Below, in pieces: positions 13,904 through 19,824 of a DNA stretch of 64,000 bases (within the stretch, counting starts at the first letter, position 1; each line of letters starts with the position of its first letter). The position numbers and the translations under genes were made by a program. The DNA is from Celeribacter litoreus. GTDB taxonomy: Bacteria > Pseudomonadota > Alphaproteobacteria > Rhodobacterales > Rhodobacteraceae. The notes beneath the pieces are model-generated. The model saw only the letters and a program-made list of their open reading frames with translations. It did no database searches and had not been told where the DNA came from. Where the stretch lies: the NCBI RefSeq assembly GCF_020165855.1, contig NZ_JAIUFY010000008.1, positions 1 to 64,000 on the forward strand, written 5' to 3'.

Positions 13904-13917
13904 TTGATGTGAATCAA
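13904..13917 (+). promoter_or_regulatory. Perfect FnrL box upstream of the DksA-like operon
   Basis: TTGATGTGAATCAA matches the FNR/FnrL consensus TTGAT-N4-ATCAA completely. A class II promoter centred at -41.5 would start near 13952, with GATCAT at the -10 position, 27 bases before the DksA-like start codon. Confidence 0.8.
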
Positions 13918-13978: not shown

Positions 13979-14314
13979 ATGATTGATCTAGACAGCAGAA
14001 GAGGCCAGCTTCTCGCGCGTAAAGAGGAACTCACAGTTCGTCTCCGGGAGATCGATGCAGAGCTTGATGCGCATCAGTCGAAAGACTGGGAAGAATTGGC
14101 AACCGAACGCGAAGGCGATGAGGTGCTTGAGGGGATGGGAGCCTCCGGCAAAGCCGAGATTGCGATGATTAATGCTGCATTAGAGCGCATTTCCGAGGGT
14201 GAATACGGTTTTTGTGCCGTTTGCGGCGAAGAAATCAGTGAAAAGCGCTTGGATGTGCTACCCTACACCCCTGTGTGCAAAGATTGCGCCGCGCGCAACG
14301 CCGCACGCAGTTAG
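13979..14314 (+). CDS. DksA/TraR-family C4 zinc-finger protein
   Basis: 111 residues: an N-terminal coiled coil (LLARKEELTVRLREIDAELD, 11-30) and a C-terminal four-cysteine zinc finger (C79, C82, C100, C103). DksA-type proteins bind the RNA polymerase secondary channel and adjust promoters with ppGpp. This one is shorter than E. coli DksA (151) and lacks the acidic DxxDxA tip, so it belongs to the TraR/YbiI-like or alphaproteobacterial short group. An AGGAGGCG ribosome site precedes the ATG. The perfect FnrL box upstream predicts induction at low oxygen. Confidence 0.85.
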   Translation: MIDLDSRRGQLLARKEELTVRLREIDAELDAHQSKDWEELATEREGDEVLEGMGASGKAEIAMINAALERISEGEYGFCAVCGEEISEKRLDVLPYTPVCKDCAARNAARS

Positions 14315-14991: not shown

Positions 14992-17070
14992 ATGAGCAGC
15001 GCGGACCGAAGCAGATCGGACTGGAAATTGACGGCGGGTCAGCTCGTGCAATTCCTGAGAGAAGACCGCGTCGGTATCATCCGCCTGAATAATCTTCCGT
15101 CGAATATTCTGACGCAACCGCTGCGACAGGCCCTCTCGGACGCGCTGAAAAAAGCCATCAAAGATGACGGTGTCGAAGCGATCATCCTTACGGGGAGCGG
15201 AGCTTCGTTTTGTTCGGGCTTTGATCAGGAGGACCTGCTGGCTCGTGATCCGGAGCCGAGCCTGACCAGCCTCTGCGAACAGATTGAAATGTCGCCAAAG
15301 CCGGTGATTGCCTCTCTCCACGGCACAGTCGTCGAAGCAGGTCTCGCACTGGCGCTCTCGGCGCACTACCGGATCGCAGGGCGTGCAGTGCGTCTCGGGA
15401 CGCCGGAGGTGACGCTCGGGCTCGTGCCGTCCGGCGGGCTAACGCAGCGATTGCCGCGCCTCGTCGGGGCGAAGGCCGCGCTCGATATGCTCCTTTCGGG
15501 CAAGACGATCACGGGCATGTATGCGCATGAAATCGGTCTCGTGGACGAGATCGCGACCCATCGGGGGCAAGAAGAGATCGTGTTTGCGCGAAATCTGCTC
15601 GCGGAAAATCGTGGGCCGCGACGGACGCGGGACAGTCAGGTGGGGACGGCGGACGGTGTGGCCTTCGCGCGCACCATTGCGACGCGGCGCGCCGAAGTGC
15701 GCAATGGCCGCATCGAAGCGCCGGAACAGATTGTAGCCTGCGTCGAGGCCGCGCTGCTCATGCCGTTCGACGTCGGTGTCGCACGTGAGGCCGTGGCCCG
15801 CGACGATTGCTTTGCCACGCCAGAGTCCCGTGCTCTCCGTCATGCGGCGTTGTCGGAACGGCGTGCGGCGGAATTGCCGGAGGTCGGTCATGTCTCGCGT
15901 CTGTCCGTACGGACGCTCGGGATTATCGGAACAAATGCTGCAGCGCTTGGCGTCGCCATGGCCGCGCTCGATAGCGAATTGAGGGTGCTTTTGATCGGGA
16001 CGTCAGCGGCGACGCTGGAGCAAGCAGAGAACCTGTTGCGCGGCATTTACGCGCGAGCTTTGAAAGAAGGCCGCTTGCCAGAGCGTATCGTCGAAGCGCG
16101 GCTTGCATCACTCGAATGCAGTCTGAAAATCGCGAGTTTGTCCGAGGCTCAGCTCGTCTACGATCTGACCGGCATCGCCGTGGATCAGCGCGCGCGCTTG
16201 TTGGCCCGTGTAGAAGCAATACTTCCCGAAGAAATCGTTCTCGCGACGGGGGCAGACCGCGGTTTCGCGCGCCTTCGCAAGGATCTTGTGTATCCGGAGA
16301 GGTTCATAGGGATTCACACGTTCGCCCCTGCGCAAACAACGCGCGTGGCGGAGCTCGTCCGTCTCGAGGGCGTCTCGGACCGGACGCTTGTGACCGCGCA
16401 CGGGTTTGTGCAGCGGATCGGGAAAATTCCTGTGACAGTCGGTGCACAAGACGGGTTGATCGCCAACACCCTGCAGGACGCTGGCCGCGCTGCGGTCGAT
16501 GTGCTCATGTTGATGGGCGTGCGTCCGGCGCGGATTGATCAGGTGATGCGCGACTACGGATTTCCGATGGGACCGTGTGAGGTCATGGACACTGTTGGCC
16601 TCGTACGGATGCGTGGCGCGGTGCCGCAATATCTCTCCTCGCTTGGCCACGGAGGTCGTGCTGCGGGGCAGGGGTTCTACACTTACTCAGAGGACGGTCG
16701 CGGGTCTGATGATGTCGCAGAGACGGCGCTCGCGAAGTTACGGGAGCAGGCAGGCTTGCGTCCTGTCGCCCTGTCGCATCAGGAGATCGTGGAGCGGATT
16801 ATACTTGCCGAAGCGAATGCCGGGGCCGGTCTATTGGAAGCTGGCGCCGTGTCTCGGCCCGAGGACATCGATGTGGTGATGATGCTCGCGAAGGGCTACC
16901 CACGCTATCGCGGCGGGCCGATGAAAGCGGCCGATATCATCGGGATTCTCGGGGCCGAAAAACGCCTCAAGGGATTCGAATCTGCGGCCCCTGATATCTG
17001 GGCGCCTGCGACACTCTGGCACACACTCTCGAAGAATGGCGCCAATTTCGAAAAAATGAACCAAATCTGA
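14992..17070 (+). CDS. Divergent FadJ-like enoyl-CoA hydratase / 3-hydroxyacyl-CoA dehydrogenase fusion
   Basis: 692 residues with the domain order of a beta-oxidation multifunctional enzyme: crotonase fold (about 20-200), 3-hydroxyacyl-CoA dehydrogenase Rossmann domain (about 305-445) and C-terminal helical domains ending at PRYRGGPMKAAD. Key positions differ from working enzymes. The first hydratase glutamate is replaced by alanine (A119, in EAGLALALSAHYRI), while E139 in TPEVTLGLVP remains. The NAD loop GxGxxG reads GIIGTNAAALG (310-320). The dehydrogenase histidine H442 is kept. It may be an isomerase-type or non-catalytic paralogue. The GGGGGCGAAA ribosome site supports the start. It sits between two FnrL boxes. 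Confidence 0.82.
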   Translation: MSSADRSRSDWKLTAGQLVQFLREDRVGIIRLNNLPSNILTQPLRQALSDALKKAIKDDGVEAIILTGSGASFCSGFDQEDLLARDPEPSLTSLCEQIEMSPKPVIASLHGTVVEAGLALALSAHYRIAGRAVRLGTPEVTLGLVPSGGLTQRLPRLVGAKAALDMLLSGKTITGMYAHEIGLVDEIATHRGQEEIVFARNLLAENRGPRRTRDSQVGTADGVAFARTIATRRAEVRNGRIEAPEQIVACVEAALLMPFDVGVAREAVARDDCFATPESRALRHAALSERRAAELPEVGHVSRLSVRTLGIIGTNAAALGVAMAALDSELRVLLIGTSAATLEQAENLLRGIYARALKEGRLPERIVEARLASLECSLKIASLSEAQLVYDLTGIAVDQRARLLARVEAILPEEIVLATGADRGFARLRKDLVYPERFIGIHTFAPAQTTRVAELVRLEGVSDRTLVTAHGFVQRIGKIPVTVGAQDGLIANTLQDAGRAAVDVLMLMGVRPARIDQVMRDYGFPMGPCEVMDTVGLVRMRGAVPQYLSSLGHGGRAAGQGFYTYSEDGRGSDDVAETALAKLREQAGLRPVALSHQEIVERIILAEANAGAGLLEAGAVSRPEDIDVVMMLAKGYPRYRGGPMKAADIIGILGAEKRLKGFESAAPDIWAPATLWHTLSKNGANFEKMNQI

Positions 17071-17096: not shown

Positions 17097-17121
17097 AAAC
17101 GGCCGGTTTCCGGCCCTTTTT
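17097..17121 (+). terminator. Rho-independent terminator of the FadJ-like gene
   Basis: GGCCGG-TTT-CCGGCC (17101-17115) followed by CTTTTT, 27 bases after the stop codon. Confidence 0.85.
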
Positions 17122-17162
17122 GCGCGTCGGGCGCCTCGTCAATAACATGCTCTGACACCCCC

Positions 17163-17176
17163 TTGATCGAGATCAA
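17163..17176 (+). promoter_or_regulatory. Perfect FnrL box with no protein gene directly downstream
   Basis: TTGATCGAGATCAA matches TTGAT-N4-ATCAA completely. A class II promoter would initiate near 17211, with TATTCA (17199-17204) exactly at -12 to -7. The next protein gene starts 363 bases downstream, beyond a strong terminator. Confidence 0.78.
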
Positions 17177-17210
17177 AGTTTTCGCCGACTCGCTGTCCTA
17201 TTCATTCTCT

Positions 17211-17373
17211 CGAGCGCAGTGATCCACACGTCAGCAGTCAGACGCGGACCACTGCATTCCTCCCGCGGGCACTCCTTCCGATCGCCCGCGCCGTATCCTG
17301 CCTTTTGTGCGTGGGCAGAATACCATACTGGCGTCGTAGGGTATGCGTTTCTCCTACGACGCCTCTTTTTTTT
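17211..17373 (+). ncRNA. Candidate FnrL-controlled small RNA (about 163 nt)
   Basis: Predicted from the FnrL box / -10 arrangement at 17163-17204 and the terminator ending at 17373. No reading frame with a ribosome site fits between them. The body contains CATTCCTCCCG (about 17253-17263) and ACTCCTTCC, pyrimidine-rich stretches able to pair with Shine-Dalgarno sequences. Start, length and existence of the transcript are inference; the box and the terminator are seen directly. Confidence 0.5.
17330..17373 (+). terminator. Perfect 11-bp hairpin with eight T residues
   Basis: GGCGTCGTAGG (17330-17340) pairs perfectly with CCTACGACGCC (17353-17363) and is followed by TC and eight T (17366-17373). 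It is an unusually strong intrinsic terminator lying 200 bases after the end of the nearest upstream gene, which already has its own terminator. Confidence 0.9.
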
Positions 17374-17538
17374 GCCCGATTGAAAAATCCGCGATGATGC
17401 CCGTTTGAGCATTCGTCCCTCGCTTTCCACATTCCCGTTATGCAGGTGCAGAAAACTGATCGGGGTCACAGAATCTTATGACATTCTGTCAGAGGGTTGC
17501 ACCACACGGTTTTCCACCTCCTCCCATAAGGAAACGTC

Positions 17539-19215
17539 ATGTCCCTCCCGCTCTCTGACGTCGCGCTTACCACACTTGCTTTGTCCATTGCCGGATCGCT
17601 CGGCCTGCTCTTCGGGCGGCTGCAAATCCGAAAGGTCGGTCTCGGGATCGGCGGCGTTTTGTTCTCCGGTATCCTGATCGGTCATTTCGCCTCACTTTGG
17701 GGCGTCGAGTTCAACGCCGAAGTGATGCATTTCGTCCGTGAGCTTGGCCTCATCCTCTTCGTCTACACAATCGGGATTCAGGTCGGTCCGAGCTTCTTTG
17801 CGTCTTTCGCGAAGAGTGGTTTGGCTTTTAACCTCGCGGCGGTCGGCATCGTCCTGACAGGTGTCCTGATGACGCTTCTGATCTTTGCTGTGACAGATGT
17901 GCCGCTACCAGTGTTGGTCGGTGTGATGTCGGGCGCCGTGACAAACACGCCGGGCCTTGGAGCCGCGCAGCAGGTGCTCGGCGATGTGGGCTTCGGAGCG
18001 TCTGATGTCGCGCTCTCGGGCATGGGCTACGCGATGGCCTATCCGTTCGGCATTCTCGGCATCCTGACATCTATGTTCGTGCTCAAGGCGCTGTTCAAGG
18101 TCGTGCTGGAACGAGAGGAAGCCGCCTATGAGGCGGAGACGAAGACAGGCGCGCAGTCGTTGCCCGCGATGGATATTGAAGTCACGAACGTGAATTTTGA
18201 CGGTCGTGCGCTCTCAGAGGTGCCGAACCTGTTCGGGGAGGGGATTGTGCCCTCGCGTATGAAGACGGGCGGGGACCTCGTCGTGCCGACGCCGGACACG
18301 GTGCTCCATGTCGGGGACTGTCTCCATCTCGTTGGTCCGGCCGACCAGCTCGAAAGCATGCGTCTCGTTCTCGGGCGGGAGATTGATGTGCCGCTGACGA
18401 CGAAGGGGACGAAACTGACATGGAAGCGCCTCGTCGTGACGAAGGAGAAGGTGCTCGGGCAGAGCCTGCGTCAGCTCGCCTTTCTCGAAGCTCATGGCGT
18501 CACAATCTCGCGCATCAACCGTGCCGGTGTCGAACTGCCTGCGGGGGCGTCTTCGAGCCTCGCGTTCGGGGATATCGTGACGGTCGTCGGTGCGCCGGAT
18601 GATATCGAAACCGTCGCGCGGCAGTTGGGCAATGAACATGCGCGTCTGCAGGAGGTGCAATTCCCTGCGCTCTTTTTCGGAATCGCACTGGGTGTGATTC
18701 TGGGATCTATCCCGCTTGCGATCCCCGGTTTGCCTGCGCCGCTGAAACTTGGGTTGGCAGGTGGGCCGCTCATGGCCGCGATCCTGTTGGGGCGTCTGGG
18801 GCATTGGGGACCATTTACGTGGTATATGCCGCCGACGGCGAACCATGCGCTGCGAGAGTTCGGGATCGTGCTGTTTCTGGCCGTGGTGGGCATCGTTGCG
18901 GGAGACCGCTTTGTCGAGACCCTGATCCACGGCGACGGGCTCATCTGGATGGTCTACGGCATTCTGATCACGCTGACGCCATTGGTGATCGTCGGCGCGA
19001 TTGCGCGGATTGTTGGCAAGATTAACTACCTGAGCCTCTGCGGTATCCTCGCTGGTGCGATGACCGATCCGCCTGCGCTCGCCTTCGCCGTGTCGATGAG
19101 CAAGACAGGCGCGGCCTCTATGGCCTATGTCGCGGTCTACCCGATTGTGATGTTCCTGCGTATCCTCGCACCACAGGTCATCGTCCTCATGCTGGCGAGC
19201 GGGATTGGCGGATAA
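17539..19215 (+). CDS. YidE/YbjL-type putative transporter (AspT antiporter family) with TrkA-C domains
   Basis: 558-residue inner-membrane protein. Two blocks of five to six membrane segments (about 8-185 and 375-558) flank a cytoplasmic region with two RCK_C/TrkA-C-like domains (about 200-280 and 285-370, each ending in a GD-I/L-V pattern). This layout is that of the aspartate:alanine exchanger superfamily, whose E. coli members YidE and YbjL lack firm substrates. The conserved segment MSGAVTNTPGLGAAQQVL is present. An AAGGAAAC site precedes the ATG. The inverted repeat ACAGAAT-N8-ATTCTGT (17468-17489) in its leader could be an operator. Confidence 0.85.
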   Translation: MSLPLSDVALTTLALSIAGSLGLLFGRLQIRKVGLGIGGVLFSGILIGHFASLWGVEFNAEVMHFVRELGLILFVYTIGIQVGPSFFASFAKSGLAFNLAAVGIVLTGVLMTLLIFAVTDVPLPVLVGVMSGAVTNTPGLGAAQQVLGDVGFGASDVALSGMGYAMAYPFGILGILTSMFVLKALFKVVLEREEAAYEAETKTGAQSLPAMDIEVTNVNFDGRALSEVPNLFGEGIVPSRMKTGGDLVVPTPDTVLHVGDCLHLVGPADQLESMRLVLGREIDVPLTTKGTKLTWKRLVVTKEKVLGQSLRQLAFLEAHGVTISRINRAGVELPAGASSSLAFGDIVTVVGAPDDIETVARQLGNEHARLQEVQFPALFFGIALGVILGSIPLAIPGLPAPLKLGLAGGPLMAAILLGRLGHWGPFTWYMPPTANHALREFGIVLFLAVVGIVAGDRFVETLIHGDGLIWMVYGILITLTPLVIVGAIARIVGKINYLSLCGILAGAMTDPPALAFAVSMSKTGAASMAYVAVYPIVMFLRILAPQVIVLMLASGIGG

Positions 19216-19272: not shown

Positions 19273-19824
19273 TTAGCCTTTGGCTGGAAGCGGCCCGATC
19301 ATCATGACCATCTGGCGGCCTTCCATCTTCGGCATGTTCTCGACCTTGCCGATTTCCTTGATGTCTTCAGCCACACGTTGCAGCAGGTCACGACCGAGAT
19401 CCTGGTGTGCCATCTCACGGCCACGGAAGCGCAGGGTGACTTTCACCTTGTCGCCCTTTTCAAGGAACTTGAAGACGTTGCGCATCTTGACTTCGTAGTC
19501 GTGCGTATCGGTGCCAGGACGGAATTTGACTTCCTTGATCTCGATGATCTTCTGCTTCTTACGCGCCTCAGACTCCCGCTTTTGCTGTTCATATTTGAAC
19601 TTGCCGTAGTCCATGATTTTGCAAACGGGCGGCGTCGCGTTCGGAGAAATCTCGACGAGATCGAGGCCGGCCTCTGCTGCCATGTCCATGGCTTTTGCGG
19701 GGTGAACCACCCCTACGTTTTCACCCTCTGCGCCGATCAGGCGGATTTCCGGTGCGCGGATGCGTTCGTTGATACGCGGTCCGGTGTCACGGGTCGGCGG
19801 GGCATTATGCGGTCTGCGGGCTAT
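19273..19824 (-). CDS. infC: Translation initiation factor IF-3
   Basis: Binds the 30S subunit, prevents subunit joining and proofreads the initiator codon. The first ATG-like codon would give a truncated 145-residue protein. The conserved N-terminal domain ([20 protein letters not shown]) continues upstream to an ATA codon at 19822-19824, preceded by AGGAG at suitable distance, giving 183 residues beginning [13 protein letters not shown], the normal size. Rare starts (ATT, ATA) are typical of infC and underlie autoregulation, because IF-3 discriminates against its own start codon. The usual neighbours rpmI and rplT are absent here. Confidence 0.93.

Follow-up and report, generated by a model that had tools for sequence, protein, structure and literature searches.

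A candidate FnrL-activated small RNA of Celeribacter with predicted pairing to the ribosome site of the aa3 oxidase gene ctaD

In Escherichia coli, the small RNA FnrS is under FNR-type control, is induced at low oxygen, and represses functions that are dispensable without oxygen, according to the available text of PMC8139620. The candidate small RNA described here, located in a 64,000-nt stretch of Celeribacter litoreus DNA (the window, i.e. the whole stretch that was analysed), would share this outline, with induction expected at low oxygen; in contrast, it belongs to a different bacterial class and its predicted target is the aa3 oxidase. The Rfam models, which presumably include FnrS, gave no family for positions 17140-17400 at E values up to 1, and only tRNA for the whole window at the gathering threshold; therefore, there is no detectable kinship to FnrS. 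In Rhodobacter sphaeroides, a member of the same bacterial family as Celeribacter, PcrZ is a low-oxygen small RNA that depends on PrrA and FnrL (PMC8139620, available text); however, the effect of FnrL on PcrZ may be indirect, and its targets are photosynthesis mRNAs. The pattern made of the FnrL box and the loop of our candidate found no Rhodobacter record in a named collection of 84,980 species, and PcrZ was compared by description. FnrL ChIP-seq sites are reported in the putative promoter regions of two other R. sphaeroides small RNAs, Pos19 (RSs0019) and SorX (RSs2461) (PMC4263372); in contrast to our candidate, Pos19 is an RpoE-dependent small coding RNA (PMC5036791) and SorX is a 3'UTR product (PMC5502269), as far as the accessible portions of these sources go. 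Both were likewise compared by description. The CcsR or cuckoo small RNAs of the Rhodobacteraceae expose a C-rich anti-Shine-Dalgarno sequence with the family motif CCUCCUCCC. Our candidate also exposes such a C-rich sequence, but the nine-base CCUCCUCCC is absent and UUCCUCCC is found instead, no co-transcribed small gene was seen, and the FnrL-type promoter is its own.

The same sensor and the same enzyme are already connected in Dinoroseobacter shibae, where FnrL mediates the activation of cbb3 and the repression of aa3 (PMC5398030), and in R. sphaeroides, for which the CrpK table lists coxI with a minus sign and without the CrpK-only mark (PMC4263372); in the accessible parts of both sources this control takes place at the transcript or promoter level, whereas in Celeribacter an RNA is predicted to act on the mRNA. 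Given these effects of FnrL on aa3 and coxI, the output may predate the RNA route. The available texts in which no account of the RNA was found deal with FnrL and FNR small RNAs, with Celeribacter small RNAs, and with the regulation of oxidases and ctaD by small RNAs. A survey of Paracoccus small RNAs mentions, in its accessible part, Celeribacter homologues of some of its RNAs (PMC5107571), and an overlap with the RNA described here is possible.

A first-pass annotation of the window had proposed an oxygen-controlled small RNA from an FnrL box followed by a terminator, and the architecture of the locus (Table 1) supports that reading of the sequence. The proposed box, TTGATCGAGATCAA, is present as a perfect FnrL site with its centre at 17169.5, and the hexamer TATTCA occupies positions − 12 to − 7 relative to the predicted start at 17211, as had been claimed. 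A box centred at − 41.5 is in the classical position of a class II activator. All 19 loci of the genus that carry the RNA have the box, and the T and A of the − 10 element are nearly invariant at fixed spacing; in the loci of two further genera (L026 and L027) the box takes TTGACC forms. In the 3.66-Mb genome, TTGAYNNNNRTCAA is found at 23 places, versus 1 for the reversed control pattern. Upstream of the box, 15 of 15 main-clade loci carry the element [AG]TCAAT at − 25, and the other six homologues do not have it anywhere in the 40 nt upstream; the element could be a lone inverted half-site or an upstream element.

Table 1. Coordinates of the features of the small RNA locus in the window and of the FnrL boxes upstream of ctaD in relatives
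Feature	Position	Strand	Remarks
fadJ-like gene (enoyl-CoA hydratase / 3-hydroxyacyl-CoA dehydrogenase; Pfam ECH, 3HCDH)	14992..17070	+	upstream neighbour kept in the genus
Terminator-like hairpin	17101..17115	+	3' of the fadJ-like gene, with T-run to 17121
[AG]TCAAT element	17138..17143	+	begins exactly 25 nt 5' of the box
FnrL box TTGATCGAGATCAA	17163..17176	+	centre 41.5 nt 5' of the predicted start; TTGAYNNNNRTCAA form in all 19 genus loci
Predicted − 10 hexamer TATTCA	17199..17204	+	box positions 37-38 (T and A) nearly invariant among the 21 aligned homologues
Small RNA gene, ~163 nt	17211..17373	+	start predicted; end is the T-run of the terminator
Hairpin 1	17216..17255	+	3' of an invariant 5' GAG
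Linker UCCUCCCG, predicted pairing segment B	17258..17265	+	complementary to CGGGAGGA of the ctaD ribosome site
Hairpin 2	17264..17290	+	contains the second C-rich loop region, CACUCCUUCCGAUC
Hairpin 3	17293..17323	+	TTGTGCGTGG in 21/21 homologues
Hairpin 3 segment GUGCGUGG, predicted pairing segment A	17307..17314	+	complementary to CCACGCAC of the ctaD leader
Intrinsic terminator	17330..17373	+	11-bp stem (17330-17340 with 17353-17363) followed by TC and eight T
yidE-like transporter gene (Asp-Al_Ex, TrkA_C)	17539..19215	+	not a constant neighbour
infC (translation initiation factor IF-3)	19273..19710	-	
Perfect FnrL boxes upstream of ctaD	-99 to -121 from the ctaD start		L194, L195, L200, L201, L202, L204, L205, L207

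The 163-nt segment that begins at 17211 folds with − 68.8 kcal/mol (z − 5.43), a value equalled by none of 200 shuffled sequences. The consensus obtained from an alignment of 19 of these RNAs has four covarying hairpins, in which 97.5% of the cells are base-paired and 16 of 41 pairs are changed on both sides, each figure being reached in 0 of 500 shuffles; for further pair types the count stands out less (14 of 500 shuffles), and the pairing is destroyed when the partners are slid by 1 to 3 columns. The terminator stem and its eight T are as first described, with arms that are 100% complementary over 11 nt, and three of its pairs carry changes on both sides across the homologues. When the 21 homologues were compared by eye, none of the reading frames proved constant in position and length, in keeping with the original observation that none with a ribosome site lies between the box and the terminator; like an FNR-activated small RNA, the segment combines an intrinsic terminator of its own with the lack of a conserved reading frame. 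The C-rich words that had been noticed in the body of the RNA are also confirmed, CATTCCTCCCG at 17255-17265 and ACTCCTTCC at 17271-17279. In the predicted fold of the free RNA, segment A has its first six of eight bases open and its last two G in the stem, and segment B has the middle four of its eight bases open and both ends paired. The homologues were collected through DNA similarity or a covariance model, not through the word TTGTGCGTGG.

A DNA search of 101 related genomes matched 20 of them: 19 genomes of the 20-member genus group, plus one of another family with a single short match. L020-L023 are short DNA matches of the same search. The box and a fadJ-like gene upstream accompany the RNA in all 19 genus loci. 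The only genus member in which the DNA search detected no RNA is G006, whose genome is 85% complete and 2.0 Mb in size. Because the RNA, with the box and the fadJ-like gene upstream, is present in 19 of 20 genus genomes and its helices covary, the segment is a real RNA gene and more than a box and a terminator. We are highly confident that it is a genuine small RNA with an FnrL box, undescribed in the literature searched.

The neighbourhood bears on two other readings of the segment. Conservation of the segment between the fadJ-like and yidE-like genes had been proposed as a test, and it was observed that box, spacing, body and terminator are kept as a unit in 19 of 20 genus genomes and also in two other genera; in contrast, the placement holds only in part, since yidE begins within ~0.5 kb downstream of the RNA in 5 of 19 loci and at 1.2-1.4 kb in another 5, and in the remaining 9 a stretch of 1.5 kb showed no such gene. 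The short distance in the window, where the yidE-like gene starts 166 nt 3' of the last T of the terminator, and in the first five loci would suit a 5' leader or attenuator of this gene with the terminator as a switch, but the variable placement and the infC-like frame (read from its translation) that Aquimixticola has 3' of the RNA on the opposite strand make this extremely improbable. The fadJ-like gene is the constant neighbour, and the RNA could instead be a 3'UTR product of its mRNA, as SorX is of its own according to the accessible text of PMC5502269, the box being incidental. This is very improbable too: the fadJ-like gene of the window has a terminator-like hairpin of its own, as the first-pass annotation stated, the box and its spacing to the − 10 element are kept in the homologues, and no fadJ match was found in the 1.5 kb around the RNA of L027.

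Beyond the genus, the covariance model R1 was run on 394 genomes of the family (nearly one per genus) and matched 14 of them. Two belong to the same genus and two convincing matches (83.8 and 46.3 bits) are from other genera and have a perfect box ~50 nt before the match. The other 10 matches (~20-27 bits) were rejected, as they show no box with fewer than two mismatches in the 200 nt upstream and no GTGCGT in the match; where alignments were printed, their similarity is mainly in the terminator. With seven candidates scored in each genome, this search could miss divergent relatives. A pattern joining the box to TTGTGCGTGG selected from the family genomes exactly those same four, and its reversed control gave none in the table. 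A like pattern in the named collection of 84,980 species gave 24 stretches, among which some genus members of the DNA search do not appear; 15 of the stretches are the RNA, and its named carriers are Celeribacter, Pacificibacter, Aquimixticola soesokkakensis and Candidatus Halocynthiibacter alkanivorans. The remaining nine stretches (Roseibium, five Pelagibacteraceae, Nanopelagicales, Clostridia and Mycobacterium) were discarded, given that by eye they have no GC-rich stem and T-run after the loop. An element close to TTCCCTTCCTGTTGGCTACAGGA and followed by a terminator was also seen in several other genomes of the family (L031, L032, L033, L034, L231, L232), and would seem to be a separate conserved small RNA or 3' end.

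The genome encodes FnrL (NCBIfam NF045989, 457 bits for a cut-off of 300), and the best of its 14 matches to PF13545 is this protein, with the cysteine-rich start ECGSCPIRHRAVC. Further boxes are located between a hemN-like gene and fnrL, before ccoNO, before a gene that we take to be ccoG, and before cydAB; the hemN-like gene scored 284.8 bits, below the cut-off of 324.95, for the frame taken. The box of the window is thus part of a recognisable low-oxygen regulon. The genome also encodes a second Crp/Fnr protein, which does not have those cysteines and could use the box; for this reason FnrL is the likely, and only the likely, regulator acting there.

The idea that the C-rich words could pair with Shine-Dalgarno sequences gains a specific candidate target in ctaD, which encodes subunit I of the aa3 oxidase. 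In the ctaD leader, CCACGCAC and CGGGAGGA stand side by side over the ribosome site, CGGGAGGA being that site, and both are complementary, in antiparallel order, to the two partly open stretches of the RNA, i.e. the hairpin 3 segment and the C-rich linker; the leader of the same genome reads CCACGCACttattCGGGAGGAccgcATG. A gene-blind search, in which an ATG had to be preceded by the complement of the invariant loop, was run over the 20 genus genomes and found CCACGCACAA[AG]TCGGGAGGACCGCATG in five (G003, G007, G012, G013 and G018), and all five places are ctaD. The identity of the gene was established with NCBIfam TIGR02891, to which the Celeribacter litoreus copy scored 671.6 bits for a cut-off of 670.75. 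Other recurrent CCACGCACAA matches appeared in the same search, one group of which looks like coding sequence. A separate search with the loop of hairpin 2 (TCGGAAGGAGA before a start codon) gave one match in 13 genus genomes and three in seven genomes of the class, and was abandoned.

When the two segments of the RNA were scored against 801 gene starts of its own genome (859,306 bases, 23.5%), taken from the window and 40 chosen, non-random stretches, one of them taken to hold ctaD, this gene came first. None of 1000 shuffled segment pairs equalled the real match to ctaD, and across 30 complete scans with such pairs this gene never ranked better than 9th. In 13 of these 30 runs some gene among the 801 reached − 32.2 kcal/mol or lower, thus scoring as well as ctaD does with the real segments, and therefore the energy alone proves nothing; the unusual points are the identity of the gene, ctaD, and the conservation of the match. 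Full-length duplex energies were discarded because the program ignores internal structure.

Shine-Dalgarno complementarity is generic, and the equally good best matches of shuffled seeds would also fit an FnrL-activated small RNA whose main targets are other mRNAs (many Shine-Dalgarno sequences or a carbon-uptake network), the match to ctaD being due to clade ancestry or coincidence. In the same genome the TRAP gene dctQ, with AACGCACccaaacCGGGAGG, and rhaI, with CGGGAGGAA, also score well, and TTGTGCGTGG persists in genomes that have lost the site in ctaD; in contrast, the ctaD leader has both complements adjoining, in the right order and over the ribosome site, and this arrangement is lost in G006, the single genus member without detectable RNA. 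We regard main targets other than ctaD as rather unlikely. The dctQ gene (L263:17940-18434, minus strand) has AACGCACccaaacCGGGAGG at its start, follows a dctP gene that carries an FNR-type box, and is a possible second target. CGGGAGGAA forms the ribosome sites of rhaI-type genes (L293:7261-8532, minus strand; L133; L152) and of a nearby regulator gene in several genus members. Before an ATG, CGGGAGGAA occurs at 109 places in the 20 genomes, 17 of which are one repeated sequence, presumably 16S rRNA, and one is the RNA's own locus; a few gene starts recur.

The ctaD leaders were scored with the two segments of the Celeribacter litoreus RNA against 228 other gene starts. For 11 of the 20 genus genomes ctaD was not equalled by any background start, and for the other eight that bear the RNA it was equalled by 2 to 10; in G006, 167 of 228 were as good. 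Some leaders from genomes without the RNA also scored well, with 3 (G045), 9 (G029) and 10 (G031) of 228 starts as good or better, and the RNA-bearing genomes outside the genus, G101 and G148, gave 5 and 77. The motif ACGCAY, a word picked for the test after the leaders were seen, occurs in the 60 nt that precede ctaD in 21 of 21 genomes with the RNA (37 copies, often several per leader) versus 2 of 29 RNA-less ones; it adjoins the ribosome site in 16 of 21 versus 0 of 29, and GGGAGGA lies within the same 60 nt in 20 of 21 versus 0 of 29. The five RNA-bearing genomes without ACGCAY at the ribosome site (G002, G004, G010, G011 and G014) have an unchanged RNA loop, and G006 has neither GGGAGGA nor the adjoining site, with one ACGCAT kept further up. 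Within the clade, leader identity is 0.80 at site A, 0.96 at site B and 0.64 upstream. On the ctaD tree the RNA-bearing genomes fit one clade (94/85), within which G006 alone is without the RNA; the motif counts are consequently not independent events, and the Fisher values were set aside.

The abundance of ACGCAY, with several copies in many leaders, would be expected if these repeats were DNA sites of a clade-specific transcription factor unrelated to the RNA; however, most of the main clade has the copy at the ribosome site within the longer word CCACGCA[CT], and a position just before the start codon is an odd place for a promoter operator, and we consider such sites improbable. In the family at large, ACGCAC together with GGAGG before a ctaD-type start was found in 3 of 4 RNA-bearing genomes versus 4 of 390 others. 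Hidden homologues of the RNA were expected in these four RNA-less genomes; at the best match of the core model in each one no RNA was seen, the matches being weak, and no box with fewer than three mismatches was present in the 230 nt upstream, so this expectation was dropped. We consider it likely that ctaD is a direct target of the RNA, as predicted from base complementarity.

According to the model that we propose, FnrL would switch on the RNA when oxygen falls, by class II activation from the box at − 41.5. The product would be a free-standing, trans-acting RNA of ~163 nt with four hairpins and a C-rich linker, whose segments GUGCGUGG (hairpin 3) and UCCUCCCG (linker) would pair antiparallel to the ctaD mRNA, with CCACGCAC and CGGGAGGA at its ribosome site as partners; this pairing would keep the aa3-type oxidase from being translated at the same time as FnrL turns on the high-affinity cbb3 and bd oxidases. 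From an FnrL promoter and a match to the start signal of the ctaD mRNA it follows that the RNA probably helps to shut the aa3 oxidase off at low oxygen. We infer transcription, FnrL dependence, pairing in the cell and repression from sequence comparisons, and the whole explanation, an FnrL-activated trans-acting RNA that blocks ctaD translation at low oxygen, is in our judgement probable. If true, it would be an example from marine alphaproteobacteria of a small RNA that FnrL drives and whose target is concrete, and it would account for the exchange of low- for high-affinity oxidases in these bacteria at the mRNA level.

The leaders of RNA-less relatives suggest where such a route could have come from. 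A perfect FnrL box is located 99-121 nt before the ctaD start in 8 of 29 RNA-less genomes (seven of them at 114-121) versus 0 of 21 RNA-bearing ones. Six of these eight genomes fall in one 11-row clade of the ctaD tree; the distribution of the box thus does not represent many independent events and is suggestive only. We tentatively propose, as a possibility that falls short of an even chance, that in the Celeribacter / Aquimixticola / Halocynthiibacter clade a new FnrL-activated RNA took over the shut-off of aa3 from a direct FnrL repressor site. If this were the case, the relatives with an FnrL box at ctaD would offer a testable case of a sensor that moved from a protein-DNA to an RNA-mRNA route with the same output.

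Elsewhere in the window, a second perfect FNR-type box, TTGATGTGAATCAA, was observed at 13904-13917, 61 nt 5' of a DksA-like zinc-finger gene (13979-14314; Pfam PF21173, PF01258).
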